A DNA stretch of 64,000 nt, taken from the NCBI RefSeq assembly GCF_900167555.1, contig NZ_FUYF01000001.1, forward strand, positions 62,001 through 126,000, given 5' to 3'. How positions within the stretch are numbered: position 1 is the first letter of the stretch; each line of letters opens with the position of its first letter. A program made the translations under genes and the position numbers. This DNA is from Gemmiger formicilis (lineage in GTDB: Bacteria > Bacillota > Clostridia > Oscillospirales > Ruminococcaceae). Of this stretch, positions 12,938-29,614 are shown piece after piece. The notes under the pieces are model-generated. The model searched no databases and was not told where the DNA came from. It saw only the letters and a list, made by a program, of their open reading frames with translations.

Positions 12938-12956
12938 AAACAGGAAGTGAAGAACT

Positions 12957-14216: not shown

Positions 14217-14217
14217 A

Positions 14218-14359
14218 AGCCTTCCCCCTCGGGGGAAGGTGGCGCAAAGCGCCGGATGAGGGCAGAGCTTCCGAGGCCCGCCGAGAAGGAGCAGTGCCCG
14301 CAAGGTTTGCCCTCATCAGTCCGCTGCGGCGGACAGCTTCCCCCGAGAGGGGAAGCCTT
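14218..14359. repeat. Composite intergenic element, full copy
   Basis: Starts and ends with AAGCCTTCCCC/GGGGAAGCCTT arms. Inside are two small hairpins and the paired motifs GGATGAGGG and CCCTCATC. Full length about 142 bases. It lies between aroEK and aroF. Confidence 0.75.
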
Positions 14360-14377
14360 CAGGCGGCGGGCCGATGC

Positions 14378-14407
14378 TTGGCATCGGTCCCTGCAACGCA
14401 ATATTCT
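14378..14407 (+). promoter_or_regulatory. Possible internal promoter before aroF
   Basis: TTGGCA, 18 bases, TATTCT in a gap that is otherwise repeat-derived. The -35 is inside a CCGATGC/GCATCGG hairpin. It would let aroF-aroA-tyrA be transcribed apart from pheA-aroEK. Confidence 0.4.
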
Positions 14408-14451
14408 ATAGAGCATAAAAAGTATATAAAGTATATAAGAAAGAGGCTCCT

Positions 14452-15468
14452 ATGATTATTTCCACTAAAAAAGGTACGCCCCAGGTCGAGCTGGACCGCA
14501 TTGTCGATAACTTCGAGAAGCAGGGCCTGTCCGTCACGCTGATCCGCGGTACCGACTATAACGTCTTTGGTCTTGTCGGTGATACGACAAAAATTGCCGA
14601 GAAGGACGTGCTGGCAAACCCCTGGGTCGAGAACGTGACCCGTGTGTCCGCCCCTTACAAGCGCGCCAACCGCCTGTTCCACCCGGAGGATACCGTCGTG
14701 GACATCAACGGCGTCAAGGTCGGCGGCAATGCGCCCATCGCCGTTATGGCCGGTCCGTGCAGCATTGAGGGCGAGGAGCACACCATCAAGATGGCCAAGG
14801 CTGTCAAGGCGGGCGGTGCCAACTTCCTGCGCGGCGGCGCGTACAAGCCCCGCACGAGCCCCTACTCCTTCCAGGGGCTGGGTACCGAGGGCATCCTGGA
14901 TATGGTCAAGGCCCGCGAGATCACTGGCCTGCCTATCGTCAGTGAGCTGATGGACGAGGTCCACATCCCCGAGTTCGAGGAGTATGTGGACGTTGTGCAG
15001 ATCGGCGCGCGCAATATGCAAAACTTCCAGCTGCTCAAGGCCGTCGGCAAGATGCACAAGCCCGTTCTGCTCAAGCGCGGCCTGGCGAATACCATTGAGG
15101 AGTGGATCATGTCCGCCGAGTACATCATGGCCGGCGGCAATGAGAACGTTATCCTCTGTGAGCGCGGCATCCGCACGTTTGAGCGCGCGACCCGCAACAC
15201 GCTGGACCTGTCCGCCGTGCCGGTCATCAAGGAAAAAACGCACCTGCCCATTATCGTTGACCCCAGCCACGCCACCGGTGATTATAAGTACATCGAGAGC
15301 ATGGCTTTGGCTGCTGTGGCCGCCGGTGCCGACGGTCTGGAGATCGAGGTCCACAACGACCCGCCGCACGCCTGGAGCGACGGCGCCCAGTGCCTGAAGC
15401 CGGATAAGTTCGCCGATGTGATTGCCAAGTGCCGCAAGGTCGCTGCCGCCATCGGCCGGGAGATGTAA
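14452..15468 (+). CDS. aroF: 3-deoxy-7-phosphoheptulonate (DAHP) synthase, copy 1
   Basis: A 338-residue type I-beta DAHP synthase condensing PEP and erythrose-4-phosphate, the committed step of aromatic synthesis. Residues 1-70 form the ferredoxin-like regulatory domain seen in the Thermotoga-type enzyme; the barrel carries AGPCSIE (metal Cys), GGAYKPRTSPYSFQG, QIGARNMQNF, LKRG, CERGIRTFE, VDPSHATG (metal His) and EIEVHNDP (metal Glu). It is a paralogue of the gene at 62481-63500. It ends one base before the TTG of aroA, so the two are tightly coupled. Confidence 0.95.
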   Translation: MIISTKKGTPQVELDRIVDNFEKQGLSVTLIRGTDYNVFGLVGDTTKIAEKDVLANPWVENVTRVSAPYKRANRLFHPEDTVVDINGVKVGGNAPIAVMAGPCSIEGEEHTIKMAKAVKAGGANFLRGGAYKPRTSPYSFQGLGTEGILDMVKAREITGLPIVSELMDEVHIPEFEEYVDVVQIGARNMQNFQLLKAVGKMHKPVLLKRGLANTIEEWIMSAEYIMAGGNENVILCERGIRTFERATRNTLDLSAVPVIKEKTHLPIIVDPSHATGDYKYIESMALAAVAAGADGLEIEVHNDPPHAWSDGAQCLKPDKFADVIAKCRKVAAAIGREM

Positions 15469-15469
15469 A

Positions 15470-16786
15470 TTGGACGCGAAAATTCATGTCAGCCGCTTAG
15501 GCGGAACGGCCACGGTACCCCCCAGTAAAAGCGCAGCGCACCGTGCGGTGCTGTGCGCCGCATTGGCGGAGGGCACCAGCCATATCACGAATATCGAGTA
15601 CAGCAAGGACATCCGCGCCACGCTTGGCGCGGCGGCCCAGCTGGGCGCAAAAATCACCGAGGAGGCCCACTCCGTGACCATCAAGGGGCACGGGACGGCG
15701 GGCGGCTTTGTGACGGTGACACGCCCGGTTTTCTGCAACGAGAGCGGCTCCACACTGCGGTTCATGATCCCGCTGTTCAGCCTGACGGCCCAGAAGGTGC
15801 GCTTTACCGGCGCGGGGCGGCTGTTTGACCGCCCGCAGGCCATCTACCAGATGCTGTTTGAGCGCCAGGGCCTGCAATTTGAGCAGACGCCCGAGGGCAT
15901 CACGATCTTTGGACGGCTGCGTCCCGGCGGGTTCACCCTGCCCGGCGATGTGTCCAGTCAGTTCATCAGCGGTCTGCTGTTTGCCGCGCCGCTGATGGAG
16001 TCCGAGAGCAGCATCGAGGTACTGGCCCCCTACGAGAGCCGCTCCTACGTGGATATGACGGTTGACGCCATGCAGCAGTTCGGCGTCAAGGTCACGAGCC
16101 GCGCACGCAAAAACGGCAGTGTGATGTACCGCGTGGCCGCGCCGCAGCGGTATACGGCCAGCGACTTTGCCGTCGAGGGCGACTACAGCCAGGCCGCGTT
16201 CCTGGCCGTGCTGGGCTGCGTCATCGGCGGCATCACGGTCACGGGGCTGAACCCCGACAGCCAGCAGGGCGACAAGGTCATTCTGGACATTTTAAAGCGC
16301 TGCGGCGGCAAATTCAAGCCCGTCGAGGGCGGGCTGCACTTTGACCGCAGCCTGCTGAAAGCGACGGAGATCGACCTGGCGGACTGCCCTGATTTAGGGC
16401 CGATTTTGTTCACGCTCGGCTGCTTTTGCAGCGGTGAGACGGTCATCCGCAATGCGGGCCGCCTACGCCTGAAGGAATCGGACCGCATCGAGGCCATGCA
16501 GACCGAGCTGCGGAAGATGGGCGCGCGCATCGAGGTGGACGGTGACACCGTGCACATCCAGGGCGTGGCGCTCCACGCGCCGAACGCACCGCTGTCCGGC
16601 CACAACGACCACCGCATCGTCATGGCGCTGGCTGTGGCGGCGATTGCCAGCGGCCTGCCCGCCCTGCTCTGCGGGGCCGAGGCCGTGGACAAGAGCTGGC
16701 CCGCGTTCTGGAGCGTGCTGCGCGGTCTTGGCGCCAAGGTGGAGCTGAACACCGACAAACAAGAAGAATTTGACATAAAGGCGTGA
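15470..16786 (+). CDS. aroA: 3-phosphoshikimate 1-carboxyvinyltransferase (EPSP synthase)
   Basis: A 438-residue enzyme adding the enolpyruvyl group of PEP to shikimate-3-phosphate. Motifs: PPSKSAAHRAVL near residue 17, NESGSTLRFMIPLFSL near 90, the LKESDRIEAM motif near 330 and HNDHRIVMALAVA near 375. I place the start at TTG 15470, one base after the aroF stop with GGGAG nine bases upstream; an in-frame ATG at 15422 lies within aroF and would add residues unlike the family. Six bases separate it from tyrA. Confidence 0.93.
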   Translation: MDAKIHVSRLGGTATVPPSKSAAHRAVLCAALAEGTSHITNIEYSKDIRATLGAAAQLGAKITEEAHSVTIKGHGTAGGFVTVTRPVFCNESGSTLRFMIPLFSLTAQKVRFTGAGRLFDRPQAIYQMLFERQGLQFEQTPEGITIFGRLRPGGFTLPGDVSSQFISGLLFAAPLMESESSIEVLAPYESRSYVDMTVDAMQQFGVKVTSRARKNGSVMYRVAAPQRYTASDFAVEGDYSQAAFLAVLGCVIGGITVTGLNPDSQQGDKVILDILKRCGGKFKPVEGGLHFDRSLLKATEIDLADCPDLGPILFTLGCFCSGETVIRNAGRLRLKESDRIEAMQTELRKMGARIEVDGDTVHIQGVALHAPNAPLSGHNDHRIVMALAVAAIASGLPALLCGAEAVDKSWPAFWSVLRGLGAKVELNTDKQEEFDIKA

Positions 16787-16792
16787 TTTCCT

Positions 16793-17647
16793 ATGCTGGA
16801 TAAAAGCAAAACTTACCTGATCGTCGGTCTGGGCCTGCTGGGCGGCAAGTACGCGCAGGTGCTGAGCCAGAAGGGCTACAATGTGACCGGCATCACCCAC
16901 AGCCAGTCAACGCTGGACTATGCCTTGCAGCATGACTACATCCGCGCCGGTAAAAATGCGGATTTTGAGGATCTGGTAAGGGAGGCCGACTGCATCATCT
17001 TCGGCCTCTACCCCACCGTGCTGCTGGACTGGGTCAAACAGTACGGCCCACTCATCCGCCCCGGCACGATGGTCACGGATGTGTCCGGCGTCAAGCGCGG
17101 TGTGGTCGAGCCGGTGCAGGCCGCCCTGCCGGAGGGTGTGGAATTTATCGCCAGCCACCCGATGGCGGGCCGCGAGACGAGCGGCATCGCCCACAGCGCC
17201 GAGGTCAACTTTGCCCCCGCAAACTTCATCATCACCCCGACGGAAAAGAACAGCCAGGCGGGCATCGACTGGTGCCGCGACCTGGCCGCGGAGCTGGGCT
17301 TCAAGCGCATCAGCGTGCTGACCCCCGCCGAGCACGACCACATGATCGGCTACGTCAGCCAGCTCTGTCATGCCATTGCCGTCAGCCTGATGTGCGCGTC
17401 CGATAACTCGGAGCTGGCGAACTACACGGGCGACTCCTTCCGCGATTTGACGAGAATTGCCCATATCAACGACAAAATGTGGGCGGAGCTGTTCCTGTGG
17501 AACAAGGACAACCTGATTTCCGAGATTGATATGTTTGAGAGCGCCCTGCAGGATATGCGGGAAAAGCTCGTCCGCGATGACCGCGAGGGGCTGGAGGAAA
17601 TGTTCCGCCTGTCCACAAAGCGTCGGGAAGCGTTTGACAAGAAATAA
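16793..17647 (+). CDS. tyrA: Prephenate dehydrogenase
   Basis: A 284-residue NAD(P)-dependent enzyme converting prephenate to 4-hydroxyphenylpyruvate for tyrosine. The N-terminal Rossmann site is IVGLGLLGGKYA (residues 10-21), VSGVKRGVV marks the centre, and SHPMAGRETSGI (~121) carries the catalytic His. There is no ACT domain and no fused mutase, so feedback control must act elsewhere and prephenate comes from PheA. Last gene of the aro cluster, closed by a strong terminator. Confidence 0.94.
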   Translation: MLDKSKTYLIVGLGLLGGKYAQVLSQKGYNVTGITHSQSTLDYALQHDYIRAGKNADFEDLVREADCIIFGLYPTVLLDWVKQYGPLIRPGTMVTDVSGVKRGVVEPVQAALPEGVEFIASHPMAGRETSGIAHSAEVNFAPANFIITPTEKNSQAGIDWCRDLAAELGFKRISVLTPAEHDHMIGYVSQLCHAIAVSLMCASDNSELANYTGDSFRDLTRIAHINDKMWAELFLWNKDNLISEIDMFESALQDMREKLVRDDREGLEEMFRLSTKRREAFDKK

Positions 17648-17652
17648 AAAAT

Positions 17653-17687
17653 GCTGCTGTCTCAAGCGGACAGCAGCTTTTTTATTT
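17653..17687 (+). terminator. Terminator between tyrA and the convergent DUF6320 gene
   Basis: A 9-bp stem GCTGCTGTC/GACAGCAGC with a seven-base loop, followed by TTTTTTATTT. A-rich sequence upstream lets it work on both strands. Confidence 0.9.
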
Positions 17688-17711
17688 GGCTCGTGCAGGG
17701 GCGGAGTATGG

Positions 17712-18398
17712 TTACATGTGCAGACGCTTTACGATTTCGTTTTTCAGGGCTCTGCCGCGGAAGATGACAAGGCCCAGAAACGTGATGACGCTTATGATCA
17801 GGCAGATGACCCACGGCAGACTGTGGGCGTCCAGCCTGCCGGAATAGTCAATGCGGAAGAACAGCAGAATGTACGGCAGGACGCCGATGCCGATGTTCAT
17901 GAGCAGATACACGAGCGCGTTTGCTGTAAAGCGGCTGCGCAGGAAGGCAAAAATAAAGTTGCAGACCAGCGCTGTACAGCACAAAATCGGCACGACGAGG
18001 TCCAAGCTGTACCCCGTGTAGCCGTTGAACCAGTCGGTAAAGACGAGAAGCGCCGAGACGAGCAGCAGCAGATTGAAGATCTGCCGCGGGCCGTTGAAGC
18101 GGCGGCGCAGCACGGCGCGCACCACCCGCAGGACCGCCACGGCCCAGACAGCCATCAAAATGCTGAAATGACGGTGGGGCGTGTCTTCCATCAGCAGGAA
18201 ATCAAAGGCACCGGCTACGACGATGAGCGCTGACAGCACGAACGCCACAATCTTATACAGCAGGGATGCGCGGTGGATGCGCGGGGCCGTTGCCGGAAAA
18301 TACGGCTCTCCGGCGGGGCCGGACAGGCGGTTCTGGCACAGCGGGCAGTAGGCAGTGTCCCCGCCGACCTTGATATGGCAATGCGGGCAGGTATTCAT
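17712..18398 (-). CDS. DUF6320-type zinc-ribbon integral membrane protein
   Basis: A 228-residue protein. The N-terminus is a zinc ribbon (CPHCHIKV and CPLCQNRL, two CxxC pairs at residues 4-21), followed by about six hydrophobic segments from residue 45 to 215. I recall this architecture as DUF6320, often found beside HxxxD acyltransferases and alpha/beta hydrolases, as here. The function is unknown; it may anchor the acyltransferase or present the substrate at the membrane. Its start overlaps the acyltransferase stop by four bases, so the two are translationally coupled. Confidence 0.8.
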   Translation of the reverse strand: MNTCPHCHIKVGGDTAYCPLCQNRLSGPAGEPYFPATAPRIHRASLLYKIVAFVLSALIVVAGAFDFLLMEDTPHRHFSILMAVWAVAVLRVVRAVLRRRFNGPRQIFNLLLLVSALLVFTDWFNGYTGYSLDLVVPILCCTALVCNFIFAFLRSRFTANALVYLLMNIGIGVLPYILLFFRIDYSGRLDAHSLPWVICLIISVITFLGLVIFRGRALKNEIVKRLHM

Positions 18399-19642
18399 CT
18401 TTCCACCTCCGTAGCGTACAGGGTAACATCCAGCCCATCCTTGGCAAACTCCCGGTAAAGGCGCTGCAAAATGGCGGTGCTGCGCAGGGCAGAAGCAGTG
18501 CCCAGCACAAGGTCGTCCCCGTAGGAGCAGACCACAGTGAACAGCGTCTTACAGCTGGAAAACGCTGCAAAATTGTGGATATAGGGCTTCATACCCTCCG
18601 GGATGCTGACCCGGCCCATGTTGGAGACAACGGCGGAGACATGCCGGTCCTCCAGCTTGGTGAAAAACTTGACCGCCGCGTTTTTGATGACCAGCGGAAC
18701 CGGGCGGATGCCGGGTATGTGTTCCAGTTTTTCATACGCATCCATCTGGGCGCGAATGTTCTCGGGCTTTAAAACCTCTTTCAGCTTGGCATCAAAGACC
18801 GGGGCGACGGTTTCCAGCGTGTCCTCGGGCGTCAGCGTATGGGCGATGCAGACCGAGTTGAAGAAGTTGCGCGCGGTCTCGCTGGGATAGTAGTTGCGCA
18901 GGTTGACGGGCAGGCTGATGGAGATCGGCTTTTTGCGTTCCAGTGCGGGCATATCGTGGTAGATGGCCAGCATGAAAGATGCGCCCAGGTAGCTTGTCAT
19001 CGAAACGCCCAGTGCGTGGGAGCGTTCCAACACCTGTTTAGAGCTTAAATGTCCCTCAAAAAACTGCAGCTGGCTGTAGGGCAGAAAACCGTGCGGGCGG
19101 TACACCTTGGGTTTTTTAGCGGATTTCTTCCGCTTGGTGCCCTCATAAAAATTGCGGAAACTGTCCTGTGCCATATCCCCGGCGGAGGCGCTGTTGGGCG
19201 AGGGAACGTTCTCCATTTCACCGGGATGGCGCAGCGCCAGATAGTTGCGCACGATGGACTTTAAGTAGAGCAGGCCGCCGTTGCCGTCCGTAATGGCGTG
19301 GAACATTTCCAGGTTGATCCGCGCCCCGAAATACGTTACGCGGTAGATCAGCTTATTGCGGCGCTCCGGCGTATACAGAGGTGCGCAGGGGGCTTTGGTT
19401 TCCGGCTGGGCGGTGGGCAGCTGGTCGGTGGACTCAAAATAATGCCAGAACAGACCGCGGTGCAGCGTGACCTGAAACTGCGGCCATTCCTGTGCGGTGC
19501 TGCGCAGGGCCTCATTCAGCGTATTGGGGTCGATCTCCTCGTTCAGCGTGCAGGAGATACGAAAGACCCGCGGGTCGCGCTGGGACGCCGTAGCCAGAAA
19601 CACCTTGGCGACGTTATCGACTTTATACCAGGAATCGGACAT
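18395..19642 (-). CDS. HxxxD-type acyltransferase (alcohol acetyltransferase-like)
   Basis: A 415-residue protein of the condensation/acetyltransferase superfamily that moves acyl groups from CoA or a carrier protein onto an alcohol or amine. The catalytic motif is HAITDG (His and Asp, residues ~112-117); a C-terminal NMGRV segment (near 322) resembles the second signature of this fold. No signal peptide, so it is probably cytoplasmic or membrane-associated. I place the start at 19642, where AAAGGA is spaced eight bases; an ATG six bases earlier is too close to the ribosome site. It is third in a minus-strand operon. The acceptor is unknown. Confidence 0.82.
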   Translation of the reverse strand: MSDSWYKVDNVAKVFLATASQRDPRVFRISCTLNEEIDPNTLNEALRSTAQEWPQFQVTLHRGLFWHYFESTDQLPTAQPETKAPCAPLYTPERRNKLIYRVTYFGARINLEMFHAITDGNGGLLYLKSIVRNYLALRHPGEMENVPSPNSASAGDMAQDSFRNFYEGTKRKKSAKKPKVYRPHGFLPYSQLQFFEGHLSSKQVLERSHALGVSMTSYLGASFMLAIYHDMPALERKKPISISLPVNLRNYYPSETARNFFNSVCIAHTLTPEDTLETVAPVFDAKLKEVLKPENIRAQMDAYEKLEHIPGIRPVPLVIKNAAVKFFTKLEDRHVSAVVSNMGRVSIPEGMKPYIHNFAAFSSCKTLFTVVCSYGDDLVLGTASALRSTAILQRLYREFAKDGLDVTLYATEVER

Positions 19643-19723
19643 GAGCATGGTCCTTTCTTTTGTGGCTGTATGGGAGCGGCTGCCTTCCGGGAACTGCTAC
19701 TTTCTTTACGGGTTATAGCCCGC

Positions 19724-20701
19724 TCAAATGATCCTCTGCACAAATCGCCCCGCGCTCTCCATTGCGACGGCGGCTCTGCGGATCGGCATCTGCTGGAACA
19801 CATGCCAGCACTCGGGGTAGACCTCCAGCTGGGCGTACACCCCGGCCTTCTGCAGATTTTCCACAAGGCGCTCACTGTCGGACTTCAGAATTTCGTTTGT
19901 GCCTACCTGTACCAGCGTCGGGGGCAGACCGCGCAGGTCGGCAAAGAGCGGGCTGTAGCACGGGCGCGACCAGTCGGCATCGGGGCCGGTGTAGGCCTCG
20001 CGCACGGCGGCGATGTACTCCATCGTCAGCATCGGGTCCAGTGTCTTGCAGGTGCGGTAGCTCTTTCCGCTGGCCGTCATATCGGTCCATGGGCTGAACA
20101 GCACCAGCCCGCGCGGCTGGGCACGGCCCTGCTCCTTCAGCTTTAAAGCCAGCTCCAGCGCCAGGTTGCCCCCGGCGGAGTCGCCCGCGACGATAACGTC
20201 CCGCGCACCGTAGCCCATATACATTAAATAATCCCACATCGCCACGGCATCCTCAATGGCCGCAGGGAACGGGTGCTCCGGCGCAAGGCGGTACTCAAAC
20301 GAGAGCACGTCAAACCCGGTAGCCAGCGCCAGCTTGCTGGCCAGAATGCGGGCGTACCCCAGCTGGCCGCAGGTGTAGCCGCCGCCGTGGCAGTACAAAA
20401 CGGCGTGGCGGCGGTCATGGCCGTGCTCCAGGCTGACCCACTCGGCGGGGATGCTCCCCACTGTCAGGCTGTCGCTGCGGATGCCGATGCCCGGCGTGAC
20501 GAGCCGCGCAAACAGCTCCTCCGCGGCGCGCTGGCGCTCCAAATCCTCGGGCGTCGTCGAGGTGTGGTCGCTGATGCTGTGCACGGCCTTGATGGCCCGC
20601 ATCATCGGGCCGAGGTCGTCGGGGTTCTGCTCCTGCTGGGGCACCAGCGTTTTGATGACAGCCTCGAGCCGCTGGCTCAAATCGTTTTTTCTTCTGGACA
20701 T
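19724..20701 (-). CDS. Alpha/beta hydrolase, hormone-sensitive-lipase type
   Basis: A 325-residue serine esterase/lipase fold. The oxyanion-hole motif HGGGYTCG (residues ~98) and nucleophile motif GDSAGGNLA (~167) define the HSL group; the acid Asp probably lies near 255-265 and the catalytic His in CWHVFQQM (~305). No signal peptide is seen. It probably hydrolyses short acyl esters, and together with the adjacent acyltransferase could form an add/remove pair. It starts nine bases after the glycosyltransferase-like gene with GGAG before the ATG. Confidence 0.88.
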   Translation of the reverse strand: MSRRKNDLSQRLEAVIKTLVPQQEQNPDDLGPMMRAIKAVHSISDHTSTTPEDLERQRAAEELFARLVTPGIGIRSDSLTVGSIPAEWVSLEHGHDRRHAVLYCHGGGYTCGQLGYARILASKLALATGFDVLSFEYRLAPEHPFPAAIEDAVAMWDYLMYMGYGARDVIVAGDSAGGNLALELALKLKEQGRAQPRGLVLFSPWTDMTASGKSYRTCKTLDPMLTMEYIAAVREAYTGPDADWSRPCYSPLFADLRGLPPTLVQVGTNEILKSDSERLVENLQKAGVYAQLEVYPECWHVFQQMPIRRAAVAMESAGRFVQRII

Positions 20702-20710
20702 GGCAGCTCC

Positions 20711-21643
20711 TTACAGCTTGGCCAGCAGCCGCGTCCATACGGTGCGCAGCAGCGGCGGATGTGCGGCGGGCAGGCCGCACAGGCGGTAGATTTTGTTCAG
20801 CGGCGGGAAAACCCCACGCCTGACATAGCCATTGTAAATCAGCTTCAGCTGGCGGTCCTTCGCCGCACCCGGCAGATGCAGGATGCAGACGGGGTCGAGT
20901 GTATAATTTGTCGATACATAGTAGAAATGCCCGCCAAGCCAGTAGCGGAAGATATAGGCATTTGCAGCGCGCACGGGTTTACCGGCCAGCAGACTGCGGT
21001 AGGCGGCACCGCACCAGACGGCCTCGTCACCCTCCTTCGGGGTGATGCCCTTTGCCTGCAATTCTTCAAAATAGTCACGGCACAGCGACATAAAATCGGC
21101 CAGCCGCGCCCTGCTGCCCGCGACCAGCTCGCCGCCGAAGTGCGTCAGCGCGTGCGGTGCGCCGTCCGGCTCCACCGCATCAAAGCAGCGGCTGATGGCG
21201 GCGGTCATCGTCTGGCTGGCGGTGTGGGGGACCTGATACAGCAGCACGGCCTCGTCGCATTCCCGCCACAGATCGTCCAGCGGGCGCTGGGTGAAGGTGT
21301 CGAGGTCGAGCATCGCCGCGCGGGCAAAGTTGCGGTTTTCCAGCACCCACGCCATGGCGCAGAGCTTGTAGTAGGCCAGTGCCCAATTGGTGTCGGCGGG
21401 CACGCGGTAGGTGGTAAACGGGCAGTCCCAGATCTCGACGCCGCCCTGCGTCAGCTGGCTGCGGAACGGCTCCGGCACGGGAGCATTCGTCAGCAGGGCC
21501 ACTGTGCAGGCAGGGTTCTGCGCCTTGGCGCTGCACAGCGCCACGACGGTGCAGCGGTCATAGACCGTGCGGCCCAGATTGGCTGCGTCTCCCTCGCGGT
21601 AGCCGTCCAGCGTGGCGAATGCGCCGAAAATCAGATTTTCCAT
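20711..21643 (-). CDS. Glycosyltransferase-like protein (GT-A type, family unclear)
   Basis: A 310-residue protein beginning MENLIFGAFATLDGYREG. The MLDLDTF segment (near residue 112) resembles the DxD metal motif of GT-A enzymes such as GT8 relatives, and the spacing to the N-terminal Rossmann-like part is plausible. I do not recognise a specific family. The start at 21643 has GGAGGGG about nine bases upstream; a longer frame to 21724 overlaps the promoter and is not used. First gene of the minus-strand operon with the hydrolase, acyltransferase and DUF6320 protein. Confidence 0.7.
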   Translation of the reverse strand: MENLIFGAFATLDGYREGDAANLGRTVYDRCTVVALCSAKAQNPACTVALLTNAPVPEPFRSQLTQGGVEIWDCPFTTYRVPADTNWALAYYKLCAMAWVLENRNFARAAMLDLDTFTQRPLDDLWRECDEAVLLYQVPHTASQTMTAAISRCFDAVEPDGAPHALTHFGGELVAGSRARLADFMSLCRDYFEELQAKGITPKEGDEAVWCGAAYRSLLAGKPVRAANAYIFRYWLGGHFYYVSTNYTLDPVCILHLPGAAKDRQLKLIYNGYVRRGVFPPLNKIYRLCGLPAAHPPLLRTVWTRLLAKL

Positions 21644-21679
21644 GGGCAGACCCCTCCCGTTACACACAAATACATCTTT

Positions 21680-21708
21680 ATTATAGTCATTTTGGGGGTA
21701 AATGTCTA
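21680..21708 (-). promoter_or_regulatory. Promoter of the minus-strand acyltransferase operon
   Basis: On the minus strand TAGACA, 17 bases, TATAAT, about 37 bases before the start at 21643. It is divergent from the MBOAT promoter 60 bases away. Confidence 0.6.
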
Positions 21709-21768
21709 TGGTCATCCCCTGCAAAATGCGCGGGAGCGACGGAAAAATAACTTTTTTGTGTGCAGACC

Positions 21769-21797
21769 TTGCCGAATTTTGTCATACCCTTTATAAT
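21769..21797 (+). promoter_or_regulatory. Promoter of the MBOAT-AlgJ operon
   Basis: TTGCCG, 17 bases, TATAAT. The operator at 21799-21812 begins two bases after the -10 and so covers the transcript start. Confidence 0.7.
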
Positions 21798-21798
21798 G

Positions 21799-21812
21799 TT
21801 TACAGATGTAAA
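21799..21812. promoter_or_regulatory. BlaI/MecI/CopY-type operator at the MBOAT promoter
   Basis: TTTACAGATGTAAA, a perfect 14-base palindrome containing the TACANNTGTA core known for BlaI/MecI/CopY repressors. Its position over the start site predicts repression. The likely binder is the BlaI-family protein at 38622-39014. Confidence 0.6.
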
Positions 21813-21865
21813 ATTTTTATGAAGCGGCATCGCCACAGGCTGTGCCGCGCGGAGCAGTGTTTTTT

Positions 21866-23275
21866 ATGGCGTTTTCTTCGGTGCAATTTCTGTTCGTTTT
21901 TCTGCCGCTGTCGCTGGCGGTCTACTGGCTGTGCCCCAAGTGGCTGCGCAATGCCGTGCTGGCTGCGTTCAGTCTGCTGTTTTTTGCGTGGGCGGGCTTA
22001 AAGGGCGCGGCCATCCTGGTGCTGCTGGCCGGTATCAACTGGCTGGGCGGGCTTTCGCTGGGGCGGCTGGCCCACAAAAGGCCGCTGCTGATTTTGTTGA
22101 TCTTGCTGGATCTGGCGGTGCTGGGCGGCTTTAAATATGCAGGCTTTGCGGCGGAGACGGTCAACGCCCTTGTGCCGGGTCTGCTGCCGGTGCTCTCCCC
22201 CGCCCTGCCGCTGGGGCTGAGCTTTTACGTGTTCACGGCCATCGGCTACTGTGCCGATGTGGCCGCGGGCAAGGTGGAATCGGAAAAGAACCCTATCCGT
22301 TTTGCGGTGTTCCTCGCGTTCTTCGGCCACGGGCCGTCCGGGCCCATCGTGCGGTACGGCCAGCAGGCCCCGCAGCTGGATCCCGGCAGCGAGAAGCGCC
22401 GCGTCTCGGCGGACCGCTTCTGCTACGGCATCAAGCGGCTCGTGCTGGGCCTTGCAAAAAAGGCCATCATCGCCGACCAGCTCGCTTTGATTTACGCCAA
22501 AGTCGCGTCGGTCCCGGCGGCCACACTGCCCGCGCCGATCCTCGTGCTGGGCTACACGGCCTACATGATGCAGCTGTATTTTGACTTTTCCGGCTACAGC
22601 GATATGGCCATCGGCATCGGTGAGTTCTTCGGCATCACGCTGCCGGAAAACTTTGAGTATCCGTATCTTGCCTGCTCCGTCGGCGAATACTGGCGGCGCT
22701 GGCATATCTCGCTGTCGAGCTGGTTCCGCGACTGCGTCTACATTCCGCTGGGCGGCAGCCGCTGCCGCCTGCGCCGCACCTGCCTGAACCTGCTCATCGT
22801 CTTTGCGCTGACCGGACTGTGGCACGGCGCGGCGTGGCAGTATGTGGTGTTTGGTCTGCTGCACGGCATAATTTTGTGCATGGAGCGCCTGGGCCTGCGC
22901 CGGGCGCTGGAGCAGCTGCCGCGACTGTTCCGGCACCTGTACACGGTGGTGCTGCTCTGGCTGACGCTGGTGATCTTCGGTGCGCCGGGCCTGTCCGAGG
23001 GGCTGGCCGTGCTCAAGGGCATTTTTACATGGCAGAGCGGGGCCAAGGGCTATACGCTGGCGGCCTTTGCGGACACCAAGCTGCTGCTGATTTTAGCGGC
23101 GTCCTTCCTGCTGTGCGGGCCCGTGCAGGCGCTGTGCCCCAAGCTGAAGGCGGCTTTGTACGCGAAAAAGGCGCCGTCCCCTGCCGGGATGGCGGGGCTG
23201 CTCGTGCTGCTGTTTCTGGGACTTATGCGCGTCACGGCAGGCACTTACAGCGCGTTTATTTATTTTCAATTTTAA
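21866..23275 (+). CDS. MBOAT-family membrane O-acyltransferase (AlgI-like)
   Basis: A 469-residue polytopic protein with about ten hydrophobic segments. MBOAT signatures: YLACSVGEYWRRWHISLSSW in the centre (residues ~270) and the active-site His in LTGLWHGAAW (~312). Such proteins pass an acyl group, usually acetyl from acetyl-CoA, across the membrane to exported polysaccharide or teichoic acid. The start at 21866 (MAFSSVQFLFVF) has GGAG about 12 bases upstream; an ATG eight codons earlier is possible. It is followed 15 bases later by its expected periplasmic-side partner. Confidence 0.92.
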   Translation: MAFSSVQFLFVFLPLSLAVYWLCPKWLRNAVLAAFSLLFFAWAGLKGAAILVLLAGINWLGGLSLGRLAHKRPLLILLILLDLAVLGGFKYAGFAAETVNALVPGLLPVLSPALPLGLSFYVFTAIGYCADVAAGKVESEKNPIRFAVFLAFFGHGPSGPIVRYGQQAPQLDPGSEKRRVSADRFCYGIKRLVLGLAKKAIIADQLALIYAKVASVPAATLPAPILVLGYTAYMMQLYFDFSGYSDMAIGIGEFFGITLPENFEYPYLACSVGEYWRRWHISLSSWFRDCVYIPLGGSRCRLRRTCLNLLIVFALTGLWHGAAWQYVVFGLLHGIILCMERLGLRRALEQLPRLFRHLYTVVLLWLTLVIFGAPGLSEGLAVLKGIFTWQSGAKGYTLAAFADTKLLLILAASFLLCGPVQALCPKLKAALYAKKAPSPAGMAGLLVLLFLGLMRVTAGTYSAFIYFQF

Positions 23276-23290
23276 AGGAGGTGCAGAGCC

Positions 23291-24352
23291 ATGCGTAAAG
23301 CGGTCAAAATTGGCTTTATCGGCGTGTTCTGCGCCGTCATCGGGCTGGCGTTCCCGGTGTTCAACATTTTTTCCAAGCAGCTGTCGATGGACAGTCACGA
23401 AAACCGCCTGATGACCGGCCTGCCACAGGTGCTGCAAAGCCCGCTGCGGGAGCTGCCGCGCAATCTCGACAACTTTCTGGTCGATAACTCGCCGTTCCGC
23501 TATCAGTTTGTGCTGGTGAACGCCGGGCTGGACTACGCGCTGTTCGGCACGAGCCAGAGCGACCAGGTGCTGCCCGGCAAGGACGGCTGGCTGTTCTACA
23601 AGGACGGCCCCAACGCCGCGCAGCCGATGGCAAACTATCAGGGGCTGGCCGAGCTGAACGACAGCGCCGACACACTGGCCGAGGCCAGCGCGGGCTTGCA
23701 GATCTTGAGTGATAAGCTGGCCGAAAACGGCTGCACACTGGTGCTGGATCTGACGCCCAGCAAGGATCGCATCTACCGCGAGTGCATGCCCGACGGCTAC
23801 CCCATTGTGAACGAGGAAAACCGCACCGACCTGCTGGCGGCCTATCTGCAGAGCCACACGACAGTGCCGGTGGTCTGGCGGTATGACATGCTGCGCAGCC
23901 AGGCGCGGCAGAACGCCGACCGGCTGCTGTACTACAAAACGGACACCCACTGGAACGCCGTCGGCGCGCTCATCGGGCTGGACGGCATTTTTGAGGCGCT
24001 GGACATGCCGACGCGCCCGGCGGACAGCTACCCCGTCGAGGCCGGCGGCACGACCACCGGTGACATGGCAAACGTGGCGGCGCTCTACGCCAGTCTGCCC
24101 GCCGAGGAGACCTACGTAGTGCCGGGCTATGACCGGATGTTTGAGAAGGACAGCCGCGCCGTGCGGGTCATCGGGGATTCGTTCAGCGAGTACTACATGC
24201 CGTACCTGCAGGCGCGCTTCACGAACAGCTGGCGCGAGCATATCGACACCTTCACGACGGATGTGGCCGAGCACCCGGGGTGCGACATTCTGATTTTGGA
24301 GTTCAACGAGCGCAGCCTTGACAAGCTGCTGGCAATACTGGAGCAGTTTTAA
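23291..24352 (+). CDS. DHHW/AlgJ-like SGNH-type acyltransferase partner protein
   Basis: A 353-residue protein with an N-terminal membrane anchor or signal (residues 8-27) and a large extracytoplasmic domain. It has TDTHWN (near 220, catalytic Asp-x-His) and IGDSF (near 296, nucleophile Ser), the order found in AlgJ/AlgX-type proteins that complete O-acetylation with an MBOAT protein. AGGAGG lies before the ATG. Together with the MBOAT gene it forms a two-gene operon closed by a terminator. The target glycan is unknown; the operon at 1-5441 makes one candidate. Confidence 0.85.
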   Translation: MRKAVKIGFIGVFCAVIGLAFPVFNIFSKQLSMDSHENRLMTGLPQVLQSPLRELPRNLDNFLVDNSPFRYQFVLVNAGLDYALFGTSQSDQVLPGKDGWLFYKDGPNAAQPMANYQGLAELNDSADTLAEASAGLQILSDKLAENGCTLVLDLTPSKDRIYRECMPDGYPIVNEENRTDLLAAYLQSHTTVPVVWRYDMLRSQARQNADRLLYYKTDTHWNAVGALIGLDGIFEALDMPTRPADSYPVEAGGTTTGDMANVAALYASLPAEETYVVPGYDRMFEKDSRAVRVIGDSFSEYYMPYLQARFTNSWREHIDTFTTDVAEHPGCDILILEFNERSLDKLLAILEQF

Positions 24353-24367
24353 GCGGATCAAATAAGG

Positions 24368-24406
24368 CGGCCTGTCTGCGGGAATGACGCAGACAGGCCG
24401 TTTTTT
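24368..24406 (+). terminator. Terminator of the MBOAT-AlgJ operon
   Basis: A 13-bp stem CGGCCTGTCTGCG/CGCAGACAGGCCG with a seven-base loop and six T. Confidence 0.95.
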
Positions 24407-24501
24407 GTGCTGTAAGCGAAAATGTACGCGATAGTTGATGGTGTAAAGCAGCGGGGTTTGGTATACTGGGAACAGAAAAATCCGTGAAGGAGGAAAGAAA
24501 A

Positions 24502-24864
24502 ATGCTGTTTGCAACATGGGTGACGGCGCTCAATATTTTGGTTTTTGCGGCGCTGGTGGCCGCGGTGATTTATCTGTTTGTGCTGATCGTACGGGCGCTG
24601 AAGAAGTACATCGGCAGCAAGGAGATGCGGGAGGAAAAGCAGGCCGTGAAGCGCACCCTGGGCGAGACGCTGAAGGCCCACCGCACCCGCTGCCAGATGA
24701 CGCAGGAGTTCGAGGCTGAGGCGCTTGGCGTGAGCCGCCAGACCGTATCCAAATGGGAAAACGGCAGCGCCGACCCGAGCACCACAAACTTGCTGGCGCT
24801 GGCGAAGTTGTACGGAGTGGAGGCGGAGGATCTGTTGCGGGGAATAGATCGCAGCGAAGAGTGA
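24502..24864 (+). CDS. Membrane-anchored XRE-family helix-turn-helix protein
   Basis: A 120-residue protein. Residues 3-28 are one hydrophobic segment (VTALNILVFAALVAAVIYLF), followed by a charged linker with a predicted helix and then an XRE helix-turn-helix (residues ~55-112: TLGETLKAHR, ALGVSRQTVSKWENG, TNLLALAKLYGV). DNA binding by a protein tethered to the membrane is implied. The ATG at 24502 has AAGGAGG ten bases upstream; the in-frame GTG at 24484 lies before that ribosome site. It is monocistronic, with an extended -10 (TGGTATACT) at 24456-24464. Target genes are unknown. Confidence 0.85.
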   Translation: MLFATWVTALNILVFAALVAAVIYLFVLIVRALKKYIGSKEMREEKQAVKRTLGETLKAHRTRCQMTQEFEAEALGVSRQTVSKWENGSADPSTTNLLALAKLYGVEAEDLLRGIDRSEE

Positions 24865-25274
24865 AGAGAACTATGTAGGGCGGCCAGCCCTCTGGCCGCC
24901 GCGGAGGGGGGCAGGATACCTACCTGCAGAGCAATTTGAAAAGGGGGTAGCAAACCGGAAAATGCAAGGCCCGTCAAGTCGCGGGCCGGGCATGCCCGGC
25001 CCCTACAAACAACCCGGGAATAGAAACCGTTGCGCCCAAGGGGGTTCGGGGGAACACCCGAATTTAAAGCGGAGGAAGGCCCGTTGGCGTTAAGCGCGAA
25101 CAGTAATACTGCGTTCGCGTAGCCAACGGGCCTTCCGACTTCCACTTTGGGGTTCTTAGGGGCGTGCAGCCCCTAAGGCGCGGGTCCGCTGCGTCGCAAC
25201 AGCGGCAGTTTTCTTTGTAGGCTTTCTTTTGCTGTCAAAAGAAAGCCGCCTTTCGGGAGGATGCCGTTAAAACT
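24865..25274. other. 410-base gene-free region with palindromes
   Basis: No plausible coding frame. It holds a short GTAGGG palindrome (24875-24904, core CGGCCAG/CTGGCCG), a GGGCATGCCC palindrome with a CCCCTAC end (24981-25006), a large hairpin (25074-25136) and a smaller one, GGCTTTCTTTTG/CAAAAGAAAGCC (25218-25245). The last may serve as a terminator for the convergent IclR gene, though neither strand has a clear T-tract after it. Confidence 0.7.
25074..25136. repeat. Large nested hairpin
   Basis: Perfect 15-bp arms GGAAGGCCCGTTGGC (25074-25088) and their complement (25122-25136), enclosing a second stem CGCGAAC/GTTCGCG (25095-25101 with 25113-25119). It is unlike the other intergenic repeats in the window and appears once. 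Confidence 0.85.
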
Positions 25275-26036
25275 TTAGCGCAGCCCTAAATCCGCCAGAA
25301 TATCCGTCCGTGCATCCAGCGCCAGCGTGGCGATGCGGCGAATTCGCTCGGGCGTCATATAGGGTGCCAGACCGCTGATGGAAAACGCACTTTCCGCGCG
25401 CCCGTCCGCCCCGGGGATCGCCACCGCCACACAGCGCACGCCCAGCTCGTTCTCCTCGTCGTCGATGGCGTAGCCGTTCGCGCGGACCTCCACCAGCTGG
25501 CTGCGCAGCTCCTCCAGATCGATGATGGTCTTGTCCGTCAGCTTCTGCACATTGCTGTGCGTCCAGATGTCCTCGAGCTCGTCGCCGGGCAGCGTCGCCA
25601 GAATCGCCTTGCCGACGCCCGTGCAGTACAGCGGACTGCGCAGGCCGACACGGCTCGACATCCGCATCGGGCCGCTCTCGGTCTTATAAATGTATACGAT
25701 GTCCCGCCCGTCGCGGATGACGAGATGCACGGCCTCGCCGGTGCGCTGGGACAGGCGCTCTAAGTGCGCCTTCGCCACGCCCATGATGTCCATGCTGTCC
25801 ACAATGCCGCTGGACAGCTCAAACATTTTTAAGGTCAGCCGGTAATGGCCGTTTTCCTCGTCCTGCACGACGTAGCCAAGCCCGACCAGACTGGCCAGCA
25901 GACGGTGGACCGTGCTTTTGGCCAGCCCGGTCTCCTCTGCCAGCCTTTGCAGACTGACCCCCGTGGGGTGCGCCGCCAGATGCTCAATGAGCTGAAAGAT
26001 GCGCTCCACGCTTTGTACGCCGCTTTTTTCTGCCAT
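25275..26036 (-). CDS. IclR-family transcriptional regulator (KdgR-like)
   Basis: A 253-residue repressor/activator. Residues ~5-65 form the winged helix-turn-helix (SVERIFQLIEHLAAHPTGVS, TGLAKSTVHRLLASLV), residues ~80-250 the ligand-binding GAF-like domain (RSPLYCTGVGKAILA, NELGVRCVAVAIPG). IclR proteins next to KDG/KDPG genes sense 2-keto-3-deoxygluconate; the divergent eda and kdgK support that role. Start at 26036 with GGGAGG about nine bases upstream. Two matching operator-like palindromes flank its promoter, suggesting autoregulation. Confidence 0.92.
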   Translation of the reverse strand: MAEKSGVQSVERIFQLIEHLAAHPTGVSLQRLAEETGLAKSTVHRLLASLVGLGYVVQDEENGHYRLTLKMFELSSGIVDSMDIMGVAKAHLERLSQRTGEAVHLVIRDGRDIVYIYKTESGPMRMSSRVGLRSPLYCTGVGKAILATLPGDELEDIWTHSNVQKLTDKTIIDLEELRSQLVEVRANGYAIDDEENELGVRCVAVAIPGADGRAESAFSISGLAPYMTPERIRRIATLALDARTDILADLGLR

Positions 26037-26106
26037 GATCCCGGCCTCCCGATGAAATTTAACAAAAATTTCATAATTTTGCATGGCAGACAAACCGTGC
26101 CTGCCG

Positions 26107-26121
26107 TTCCGCATTATGGAA
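26107..26121. promoter_or_regulatory. IclR-type operator, site 1
   Basis: TTCCG-CATTA-TGGAA: inverted TTCC/GGAA halves with a five-base centre, lying over the transcript start of the IclR gene. Same layout as site 2, 52 bases away (about five helical turns). Confidence 0.55.
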
Positions 26122-26123
26122 CG

Positions 26124-26152
26124 ATTATAGCAGAGTTTGCCCGATTTTTCAA
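26124..26152 (-). promoter_or_regulatory. Promoter of the IclR gene
   Basis: On the minus strand TTGAAA, 17 bases, TATAAT. Lies exactly between the two TTCCG-N5-nGGAA palindromes. Confidence 0.75.
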
Positions 26153-26158
26153 GCTCTT

Positions 26159-26173
26159 TTCCGAATAGCGGAA
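26159..26173. promoter_or_regulatory. IclR-type operator, site 2
   Basis: TTCCG-AATAG-CGGAA, a perfect inverted repeat with a five-base centre, just upstream of the IclR -35 box and about 55 bases upstream of the eda -35. Confidence 0.55.
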
Positions 26174-26225
26174 TCCTAGGCGGATGCGACAAAAATCGTG
26201 CGCTTTCTTTCACATTTTTGCCCGA

Positions 26226-26254
26226 TTGACGCCCGCCGCCGCTGCGTTTATAAT
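26226..26254 (+). promoter_or_regulatory. Promoter of the eda-kdgK unit
   Basis: TTGACG, 17 bases, TATAAT, the closest match to consensus in the window, about 75 bases before the eda start. A strong promoter fits the strongly biased codon use of both genes. Confidence 0.85.
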
Positions 26255-26329
26255 AAAAGTAACCAAGTGCGGGCATCACTGCGCATACTGCGCCGGACTG
26301 CCGCACACAATCAGTGAAGGAGAATTGCT

Positions 26330-27292
26330 ATGAATTCTGTTTTGCAGCGTGTTTACGAGATCGGCATTATTCCGGTCATTGCTTTCAACAGCGTGGATGA
26401 GGCCCTGCCCCTGTGCAAGGCCCTGATGGCCGGCGGCCTGCCGGCTGCGGAGGTCACCTTCCGCACCGCCTGCGCCGAGGATTGCATCAAGAAGATCCAT
26501 GAGGAGCTGCCCGATATGCTGCTGGGCGCCGGCACTGTCCTGACCAAGGATCAGGCTGACCGCGCTATGGCTGCCGGTGCTTCCTTCATCGTTGCCCCCG
26601 GCTTTGACCCCGAGGTCTGCCAGCACGTCATCGACAAGGGCGGCATCATGATGCCCGGCACCGCCACCGCAGGCGAGATGCAGCAGGCCATGAACATGGG
26701 CTGCGAGGTCGTCAAGTTCTTCCCTGCCGAGGCCAACGGCGGCGTGGACAAGCTGAAGAACATCGGCGCTGCCCTCAAGACCTGCAAGTGGATGTGCACC
26801 GGCGGCGTCAACGCCAAGAACGTCAACAACTACCTGGGCTACAACCAGATCATCGCCGTCGGCGGCACCTGGATGTGCAAGAGCGACAAGATCAAGGCCG
26901 GTGCCTGGGACGAGATCACCGCTATGAGCCGTGAGGCCGTTGACGTTATGCTGGGCCTGGAGCTGGGCCACATCGGCATCAACTGCGCTGACGAGGCCGA
27001 GGCTGCCAAGACTGCCGAGACCATCGCCAACCTGCTGAGCATGGCCGTCAAGGTCGGCAACAGCAGCATCTTCGTGGGCAAGAAGGAATTCGAGATCATG
27101 AAGAAGCCGGGCCGTGGCACCAACGGCCACATCGCCATCCTGACCAACAACGTTGACCGCGCCATCTACCACCTGGGCCAGCGCGGCGTCAAGTTCGACA
27201 TGGCCAGCAAGAACGTCAAGGACGGCAAGACCATCGCCATCTACTTTGCTGACGAGATCGCCGGCTTTGCCTTCCATCTGGTCCAGCGCTGA
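26330..27292 (+). CDS. eda: KDPG/KHG aldolase fused to a VOC-like domain
   Basis: A 320-residue protein. Residues 1-205 are the class I aldolase that splits 2-keto-3-deoxy-6-phosphogluconate into pyruvate and glyceraldehyde-3-phosphate: Glu41 in AAEVTFRT, GAGTVLT at 67, and the Schiff-base Lys129 in GCEVVKFFPAE. Residues ~212-320 (ELGHIGINCADEAEAAKTAE through NGHIAILTNNVDRA to AGFAFHLVQR) look like a vicinal-oxygen-chelate fold. Standard Eda is about 210 residues, so this is a real extension with an unknown role. AAGGAG precedes the ATG. Codons are strongly biased to GCC, CTG, AAC and AAG. Confidence 0.93.
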   Translation: MNSVLQRVYEIGIIPVIAFNSVDEALPLCKALMAGGLPAAEVTFRTACAEDCIKKIHEELPDMLLGAGTVLTKDQADRAMAAGASFIVAPGFDPEVCQHVIDKGGIMMPGTATAGEMQQAMNMGCEVVKFFPAEANGGVDKLKNIGAALKTCKWMCTGGVNAKNVNNYLGYNQIIAVGGTWMCKSDKIKAGAWDEITAMSREAVDVMLGLELGHIGINCADEAEAAKTAETIANLLSMAVKVGNSSIFVGKKEFEIMKKPGRGTNGHIAILTNNVDRAIYHLGQRGVKFDMASKNVKDGKTIAIYFADEIAGFAFHLVQR

Positions 27293-27319
27293 TTTTGGCG
27301 TAAAATCATCCGTAAATCT

Positions 27320-27353
27320 GTAGGGGGCGGCGTCCCGGACGCCCCGCTCCCCT
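27320..27353. repeat. GTAGGGG-family palindrome between eda and kdgK
   Basis: GTAGGGGGCG outer end with self-complementary core GGCGTCC/GGACGCC and a CCCCGC end. Transcribed as part of the eda-kdgK unit. Confidence 0.7.
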
Positions 27354-27388
27354 ATTTTATAAAATTATTAAAGTAAAAGGAGTTCACC

Positions 27389-28414
27389 ATGAAAGTCGTT
27401 ACTTTTGGCGAATTGATGATCCGTCTGCAGCCGTTCAACTATGAGCGCTTCGTTCAGGCCAACAACCTGGAGTTCAGCTTCGGCGGCGGCGAGGCCAACG
27501 TTGCTGTTTCTCTGGCCAACTACGGCATCGACGCAGCCTTCGTTACCAAGCTGCCCGCTCATGCCATCGGTCAGGCCGCTGTGAACAGCCTGCGCCGCTA
27601 CGGCGTTGACACCAGCAAGATCACCCGCGGCGGTGACCGTGTCGGCATCTACTTCAACGAGAAGGGCGCTTCTCAGCGTGGCTCTGTCTGCATCTATGAC
27701 CGCGCCAACTCCGCCATCCAGCTGGCTTCCACCGCCGACTTCGACTGGGATGCCATCTTCGAGGGCGTGGACTGGTTCCACTTCACCGGCATCACCCCGG
27801 CCCTGGGCGAGAACGTTGTCGAGATCTGCCGCGAGGCCTGCAAGGCTGCCAAGGCTCATGGCGTCAAGATCAGCTGCGACCTGAACTACCGCGGCAAGCT
27901 GTGGACCCGTGAGCAGGCCCGCGCTGCCATGACCGACCTGTGCCAGTACGTTGACGTCTGCATCTCCAACGAGGAGGATGCGAAGGACGTCTTTGGCATC
28001 GAGGCTGAGGCTACCGACATCTACGCCGGCGAGATCAACCGCGAGGGCTACAAGAGCGTTGCCAAGCAGCTGGCTGACAAGTTCGGCTTTGAAAAGGTCG
28101 CCATCACCCTGCGTGAGAGCCACTCTGCCTTCGACAACGGCTGGAGCGCCATGCTGTACGACGTTGCCTCCAACGAGTACTGCTTCTCCAAGAAGTACGA
28201 CCTGCACATCATCGACCGCGTCGGCGGCGGTGACTCCTTCGGCGGCGGCCTGATCTACGCCCTGCTGAACGGCAAGAGCACCCAGGACGCTGTTGAGTTC
28301 GCTGTTGCTGCTTCCGCTCTGAAGCACTCCATCGAGGGCGACTACAACATGGTCACTGTCTCCGAGGTCGAGAAGCTGGCCGGCGGCGACGGTTCCGGCC
28401 GTATCCAGCGCTAA
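27389..28414 (+). CDS. kdgK: 2-keto-3-deoxygluconate kinase (PfkB family)
   Basis: A 341-residue ribokinase-fold sugar kinase. N-terminal GGGEANVAVSLANYG (residues ~32) and the C-terminal PfkB signature DRVGGGDSFGGGLIYALL (~273, with catalytic Asp) are clear. Its position after KDPG aldolase and divergent from an IclR regulator points to KDG as substrate, the step before Eda in breakdown of uronates and similar sugars. AAAGGAG lies before the ATG. Codon bias as strong as in eda. Some related family members act on fructose or other keto-sugars, so substrate is from context. Confidence 0.88.
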   Translation: MKVVTFGELMIRLQPFNYERFVQANNLEFSFGGGEANVAVSLANYGIDAAFVTKLPAHAIGQAAVNSLRRYGVDTSKITRGGDRVGIYFNEKGASQRGSVCIYDRANSAIQLASTADFDWDAIFEGVDWFHFTGITPALGENVVEICREACKAAKAHGVKISCDLNYRGKLWTREQARAAMTDLCQYVDVCISNEEDAKDVFGIEAEATDIYAGEINREGYKSVAKQLADKFGFEKVAITLRESHSAFDNGWSAMLYDVASNEYCFSKKYDLHIIDRVGGGDSFGGGLIYALLNGKSTQDAVEFAVAASALKHSIEGDYNMVTVSEVEKLAGGDGSGRIQR

Positions 28415-28451
28415 GTTTAGACTTTTCCTACTAAATCTGTTTGCATCATAG

Positions 28452-28487
28452 CAAAAGCCCCGCAGGCGAGAGCCTGCGGGGCTTTTG
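28452..28487 (+). terminator. Terminator of the eda-kdgK unit
   Basis: A 16-bp perfect stem CAAAAGCCCCGCAGGC with its complement, loop GAGA; the T-rich part is built into the 3' arm. Confidence 0.92.
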
Positions 28488-28525
28488 TCGTTCCCGTCTG
28501 CCCGGCGGGACATTTTTTGCCCTGA

Positions 28526-28558
28526 TTGTCAACCCTGACGCAGGGAGGGCGTTGACAT
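28526..28558 (+). promoter_or_regulatory. BirA operator
   Basis: TTGTCAACC, 15 bases, CGTTGACAT. This fits the known Firmicutes BirA site (TTGTAAACC, 14-15 bases, GGTTTACAA). The right half contains the -35 TTGACA, so biotinylated-ligase binding would block transcription of birA-bioY. Confidence 0.8.
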
Positions 28559-28581
28559 TCTGGCCGGCGTTGCGGTATACT
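28552..28581 (+). promoter_or_regulatory. Promoter of birA-bioY
   Basis: TTGACA, 18 bases, TATACT, with the -35 inside the BirA operator. Confidence 0.8.
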
Positions 28582-28615
28582 GGCCTACAGTCGGGTTTAT
28601 AAGGGGGCGGCAAAA

Positions 28616-29596: not shown

Positions 29597-29614
29597 AAAA
29601 GAGGGGTTATCCGT

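Follow-up and report, generated by a model that had tools for sequence, protein, structure and literature searches.

A clostridial esterase–acyltransferase–DUF6320 unit beside a probably separate MBOAT/AlgJ pair in Gemmiger formicilis

Organization of the Locus

The stretch of DNA analysed here (the window) comprises 64,000 nucleotides of the Gemmiger formicilis genome, in which six genes at positions 17712–24352 form two divergent operons, both apparently concerned with acylation. The locus probably consists of an acyltransferase unit widespread in Clostridia and a separate, ordinary MBOAT/AlgJ pair, which are adjacent in one branch of Gemmiger. Its features are the following:

17712..18398, minus strand: DUF6320 protein, with an N-terminal zinc ribbon (two CxxC pairs, CxxC...CPLC) and six predicted helices (PF19845, 3e-32)
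18395..19642, minus strand: predicted HxxxD acyltransferase of the AATase/PapA/condensation fold, with the motif HAITDG (PF07247 AATase, 22.8 bits, cut-off 22)
19724..20701, minus strand: HSL-family serine esterase, with HGGG, GDSAGG and His300 (PF07859, 8.9e-58; PF10340 Say1, 2.1e-15)
20711..21643, minus strand: glycosyltransferase (GT)-like protein with a conserved DxDT, the weakest label of the six
21680..21708, minus strand: promoter-like site for the GT–esterase–acyltransferase–DUF6320 operon
21769..21797, plus strand: promoter-like site for MBOAT–AlgJ
21866..23275, plus strand: MBOAT O-acyltransferase, with a C-terminal FIYFQF and the GLWHG His (PF03062, 7.8e-25); a neighbour, outside the core unit
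23291..24352, plus strand: AlgJ/AlgX-like SGNH protein, with DTHW and GDS (PF16822, 2.4e-20); a neighbour, outside the core unit

The start of the DUF6320 gene and the end of the acyltransferase gene share four bases, and the operons are separated by 222 bases (21644–21865). A promoter scan of 21560–21960 found TAGACA-17-TATAAT on the minus strand (11 of 12 consensus positions), TTGCCG-17-TATAAT on the plus strand (10 of 12) and a weaker third site, also on the plus strand, compared with a mean of 0.4 sites across 50 shuffles. The −10 boxes of both main sites are invariant in eight aligned sequences, including the window. The original prediction had placed the six genes, their motifs (HAITDG, GDSAGG and the zinc ribbon) and the gap as they are found here, and its two divergent operons with two good promoters are borne out by the open reading frames and the promoter scan. 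Five of its gene identities are confirmed by Pfam; the glycosyltransferase label is not, with no Pfam match at E ≤ 1. The shared control region that it proposed gives way to two separate promoters, and inspection by eye of the eight aligned sequences revealed no shared operator in the gap. No RNA element was detected in 12000–30000 with Rfam at gathering scores. The nearest named relatives, among the matches listed, are G. formicilis (87% in the acyltransferase).

Conserved Linkage of the Esterase, Acyltransferase and DUF6320 Genes

Gene order was compared in the 80 closest GTDB loci among the matches listed, a set biased to close relatives, in order-level relatives and in a class sample of 291 Clostridia genomes, drawn evenly and overlapping the other samples by a few genomes. 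Among the 80 loci, DUF6320 adjoins the acyltransferase in all 78 with room for it (77 downstream, one upstream), and the esterase lies upstream in 63 of the 75 with room. Ten order-level relatives had a match, and DUF6320 is beside the acyltransferase in all eight that were read, as it is in all seven loci from the family of genome G170.

In the class sample at E ≤ 0.001, weak matches included, the acyltransferase is found in 96 genomes and DUF6320 in 89. Adjacency was counted on 92 strong matches to the acyltransferase (E ≤ 2.5e-38, 86 genomes), excluding a contig-end fragment (G126) and 17 weaker rows. DUF6320 is next in 80 of these, at a median of 18 bases, and in 86 when weak neighbours are counted. 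In the opposite direction, 81 of 83 clear DUF6320 rows (E ≤ 2.3e-7; 78 of the 291 genomes, with the gene of G123 making two rows) adjoin the acyltransferase, the exceptions being one with stops (G337) and one of about 60 residues (G186). Not counted here are the second piece of the G307 gene and a further 21 rows with weaker scores (E 1.1e-6 to 9.7e-4). Nineteen of these 21 have no acyltransferase next to them, and most of the weaker rows cover no more than the zinc ribbon or a brief segment. Of the 12 acyltransferases lacking a scored neighbour, 11 were inspected; a weak DUF6320-like gene lies next to six of them (L232, L234, L235, L237, L238 and L239). The twelfth, a second copy in G159, ends at the contig end.

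Open-frame fusions join the acyltransferase to the membrane part of DUF6320 in two genomes (L230 and L231), both lacking the zinc ribbon, and the esterase to the acyltransferase in two genomes (L232 and L233). The tight linkage and these fusions provide strong evidence that the esterase, the acyltransferase and DUF6320 act together. A literature search found nothing, among the matches listed, on a unit of these three genes.

Other genes accompany the unit more sporadically. A TraX-family membrane protein is found by it in 14 of the 80 loci (two confirmed by Pfam, the rest by BLAST clustering), too few for a general partner. It lies immediately downstream in 11 (L180, L182, L183, L187, L188, L190, L192, L194, L195, L196 and L208), upstream in two (L166 and L168) and about 4 kb off in one (L185). 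Among the same 80 loci, a GGDEF/EAL protein occurs by the unit in 11 Pseudobutyrivibrio loci, and four Butyrivibrio loci carry a GH120-like protein immediately upstream; Pfam identified one or two examples of each.

Fold and Catalytic Residues of the Acyltransferase and the Esterase

Alignments A5, A6 and A7 comprise 59 of 78, 58 of 77 and 46 of 62 usable open reading frames from the 80 loci, each plus the window. The catalytic H115 and D119 of the HxxxD motif are present in 60 of 60 acyltransferase family members, 51 of which match PapA_C and 39 AATase at E ≤ 0.1. A PDB sequence search returned nothing significant for the acyltransferase. Its structural model (pLDDT 88.2, pTM 0.89) matches PapA5, with a Foldseek E of 1.4e-16 for 1q9j_B and a Z of 26.4 for 1q9j_A (rmsd 3.5, 339 aligned). 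The top VIA match is AzeD (8s6l; Z 32.1, rmsd 3.0, 374 aligned), followed by condensation domains and PapA5. On this model, the predicted fold is that of the condensation/PapA5/TRI101/TRI3 group. Both the motif and the fold place the protein in the coenzyme A (CoA)-dependent AATase/PapA/BAHD/condensation superfamily. Mycobacterial PapA5 and the fungal O-acyltransferases TRI101 and TRI3 share the fold and the HxxxD active site with it, at about 10–16% identity in the fold alignments.

The esterase shows the features of the HSL family, with HGG[GA], G[DE]SAG containing Ser175, and His300 conserved in 47 of 47 sequences, and its PDB relatives are bacterial esterases such as EstD11. The profile of the steryl acetyl hydrolase Say1 matches 46 of the 47 (E ≤ 0.001), whereas the general PF07859 profile matches far better.

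A Probable Orthologue in Clostridium thermocellum

Genome G355, regarded here as C. thermocellum ATCC 27405 in view of a 99% cohesin match, contains a single acyltransferase family match, in the gene order esterase–acyltransferase–DUF6320. The encoded protein has a mass of 50.45 kDa and aligns with the window protein over 415 residues at 34% identity (E 1.7e-95). The available excerpts of PMC8112048 describe a C. thermocellum enzyme (Clo1313_1074, WP_003519433.1) that acetylates 2-phenylethanol in vivo, with the in vitro result given as “data not shown”, and that has no activity on linear C2–C10 alcohols. According to the same excerpts, an esterase/lipase is encoded in the same operon, the protein fits TRI3 (3FOT), its expected size is 50.4 kDa and its co-expression cluster is enriched in the shikimate pathway (PMC8112048). 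An operon with an esterase is common to Clo1313_1074 and the G355 gene, and the gene order in G355 matches that of the window unit, the difference being that the G355 operon lacks the GT-like gene. The operon order, the mass and the 34% identity assign the window operon to the Clo1313_1074 type of enzyme.

DUF6320 and the Glycosyltransferase-Like Protein

The DUF6320 model (pLDDT 87.7) has six helices; a literature search found no paper on the family. The fusions, the zinc ribbon and the helices suggest that DUF6320 may tether the acyltransferase at the membrane.

The GT-like gene occurs in 29 of 61 genomes, all of them Gemmiger (one copy being a remnant), in 17 of the 20 Gemmiger loci read, and in six of the 80 GTDB loci, all Gemmiger. 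The DxDT is conserved across 18 Gemmiger sequences, in which an HLPG stretch is invariant. A PDB sequence search with this protein returned no significant match. In one locus (L092 of G027), the gene is a remnant with stops, while the esterase, acyltransferase, DUF6320 and MBOAT/AlgJ genes remain.

The Neighbouring MBOAT/AlgJ Pair

The original prediction called the plus-strand genes the standard membrane O-acyltransferase pair, and their motifs agree. The FIYFQF-type C-terminal motif is present in 16 of 16 MBOAT orthologues checked, including the window, and the AlgJ-like DTHW and GDS in the window and 10 of 10 others. In the portion of PMC12148441 available, FXYXXF is given as the acyl-shuttle motif of PatA and DltX, and FIYFQF fits it. 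The MBOAT His, the FXYXXF C-terminus and the DTHW (DxH) and GDS of the SGNH protein, all features of MBOAT–SGNH envelope O-acetylation, are common to the PatA/PatB, AlgI/AlgJ and DltB/DltD-type pairs described in that portion (PMC12148441); this likeness is confined to 21866–24352. Judged by sequence, the pair is a standard, ordinary pair for O-acetylation of an envelope polymer.

Whether this pair belongs with the operon was assessed in 35 Gemmiger genomes, including the window. The acyltransferase is found in 28, an MBOAT orthologue (identity of 54% or more, against 47% for the next match) in 29, and both in 24. They are neighbours in 11 of these 24 genomes and apart in 13, either on different contigs or, in G007, at a distance of about 185 kb. 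Reading covered the operon side in nine of the 13 genomes and the MBOAT side in eight; G008 was read from the operon side alone, and four genomes (G023, G025, G032 and G033) were classed as apart by contig number alone. In the nine, IclR or another gene lies upstream of the operon and MBOAT/AlgJ is absent there; across the 20 Gemmiger loci read, MBOAT/AlgJ stands between IclR and the operon in eight and is missing in 12. The operon occurs without an MBOAT orthologue in four genomes (G003, G005, G029 and G031, the last 99% complete), and an MBOAT orthologue without a detected acyltransferase in five, four of them 82–87% complete. The fifth of these (G001) is in 1110 contigs, and its GT gene adjoins MBOAT near a likely contig end. 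Draft genomes inflate such absences.

In an acyltransferase tree of the window, 20 loci and one outgroup, adjacency forms one clade and is explained by one change (support 90/92, below the level for the tool's star). A single change is enough in 92% of the 200 bootstrap trees; none of 500 shuffles is as low. Elsewhere in the genus, the pair has other homes. It lies between dapF and dapL in L111 (2033–6687; NCBIfam), and the upstream ends of L112, L114 and L117–L119 resemble this setting by eye. It is near rimP and nusA in L115 (NusA above cut-off, RimP below cut-offs though at E 1.7e-31) and, by eye, in L113 and L120. The dapF–dapL setting hints at a role in a wall polymer. Among the 80 GTDB loci, the pair is present in three, all Gemmiger; it was found at none of 70 non-Gemmiger loci, examined over at most 9 kb per side and many cut by contig ends. 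A lone MBOAT lies about 8 kb from the unit in one non-Gemmiger locus (L153).

The separation in 13 of 24 genomes, the single clade of adjacency and the other gene homes argue for a separate, ordinary pair beside the operon. The joining of all six genes, under a shared control region, into one acylation/deacylation system for a surface glycan or glycolipid is consequently rejected on synteny as very improbable, despite the 11 adjacent genomes, the conservation of both promoters and the TraX-family proteins of other Clostridia, since the operons are mostly apart in relatives and are not conserved together. What stands of that claim is one system for the esterase, acyltransferase and DUF6320, and what falls is the inclusion of MBOAT/AlgJ. 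TraX beside the unit is the best remaining support for the joint idea: the excerpts of PMC12423673 place TraX at the margin of the transmembrane acyltransferase superfamily, which means that a second membrane acyltransferase by this unit is not unique to Gemmiger.

Beyond the pair, the window carries an IclR/KdgR-like regulator gene (25275–26306) and a KDPG aldolase gene (26330–27292) with about 110 C-terminal residues past the matched aldolase domain. In several Gemmiger lacking MBOAT here, the IclR/KdgR-like gene is directly 5′ of the GT–esterase operon in the same orientation, and it is a possible regulator.

Proposed Function

The unit is read here, with moderate confidence, as a membrane-tethered acyl-CoA:alcohol O-acyltransferase with its own esterase, and MBOAT/AlgJ as separate. 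The cytoplasmic acyltransferase would transfer an acyl group, probably acetyl, from CoA to the hydroxyl of a bulky hydrophobic alcohol, which may be aromatic, isoprenoid or lipid. The esterase, from its chemistry and its linkage, would take the acyl group off again, while DUF6320 would anchor the acyltransferase at the membrane or handle the product there. The GT-like enzyme, seemingly gained in Gemmiger, perhaps glycosylates the same acceptor, and MBOAT/AlgJ would have come to adjoin the operon in one Gemmiger branch.

Several points weigh against this reading. Five of the 11 inspected class loci (L236 and L240–L243) have no DUF6320-like gene, and 12 of the 75 GTDB loci no esterase by the profile used. 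The best structural match, AzeD, is a condensation-fold dehydratase and no alcohol acyltransferase. The G355 gene is taken as the orthologue of Clo1313_1074 from mass, uniqueness and operon rather than from a comparison of accessions; the published 50.4 kDa, as excerpted from PMC8112048, may include a tag, and G355 is not the strain of that paper. The window enzyme is only 34% identical to the tested one, for which 2-phenylethanol may be a surrogate substrate. The DUF6320 fold has no PDB match at E ≤ 0.001, and the zinc ribbon, missing from both fusions, is also missing from some unfused copies. The GT-like protein, compared by hhalign with nine GT8 proteins of another family (the window's genome having no PF01501 match), gave E 0.017 and a probability of 2.6%, against 0.06–0.11 for three unrelated profiles; the DxD lines up, and the match is not significant.

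Tentatively, the acyltransferase could instead act like PapA, acylating a glycolipid glycosylated by the Gemmiger GT-like enzyme, with the esterase as editor. PapA5 and a mannosylerythritol-lipid acyltransferase are among the fold matches, PapA_C matches most of the family (the window protein at 19.8 bits, under the cut-off of 30), and the GT-like gene accompanies most Gemmiger loci. That gene was, however, found only in Gemmiger in the samples searched and is absent from three of the 20 loci read, and the alcohol acetylated by the tested orthologue, as excerpted from PMC8112048, is small and aromatic.

Detoxification, or the formation of volatile esters from fermentation or aromatic alcohols, seems rather unlikely. 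In yeast, Atf2 and Say1 carry out parallel acetylation and deacetylation of sterols, and the AATase and Say1 profiles recur in the two families, though PF07859 fits the esterase far better. The window operon also faces shikimate-pathway genes, which recalls the 2-phenylethyl acetate and the shikimate-enriched cluster of the orthologue; its inactivity on linear alcohols speaks against such a role (PMC8112048, as excerpted). AroA/TyrA are near the operon in only six of the 20 Gemmiger loci, all in the MBOAT-adjacent clade, and in none of the eight order-level loci, and a shikimate link was rejected.

Likewise doubtful is a new kind of membrane acylation machine made of two parts, the acyltransferase and DUF6320. 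It would be a counterpart of MBOAT–SGNH or AT3 in which a soluble PapA-type enzyme works with a six-helix protein, the latter carrying the acyl group or acylated lipid to the other side of the membrane and the esterase resetting the system.

Significance

For the membrane-tethered acyltransferase unit proposed here, the near-exclusive pairing and the fusions with the acyltransferase give DUF6320 a testable role, and the published orthologue of the acyltransferase offers a working assay. The analysis also tells apart, in the gut genus Gemmiger, two acyl systems that annotation might merge into one.

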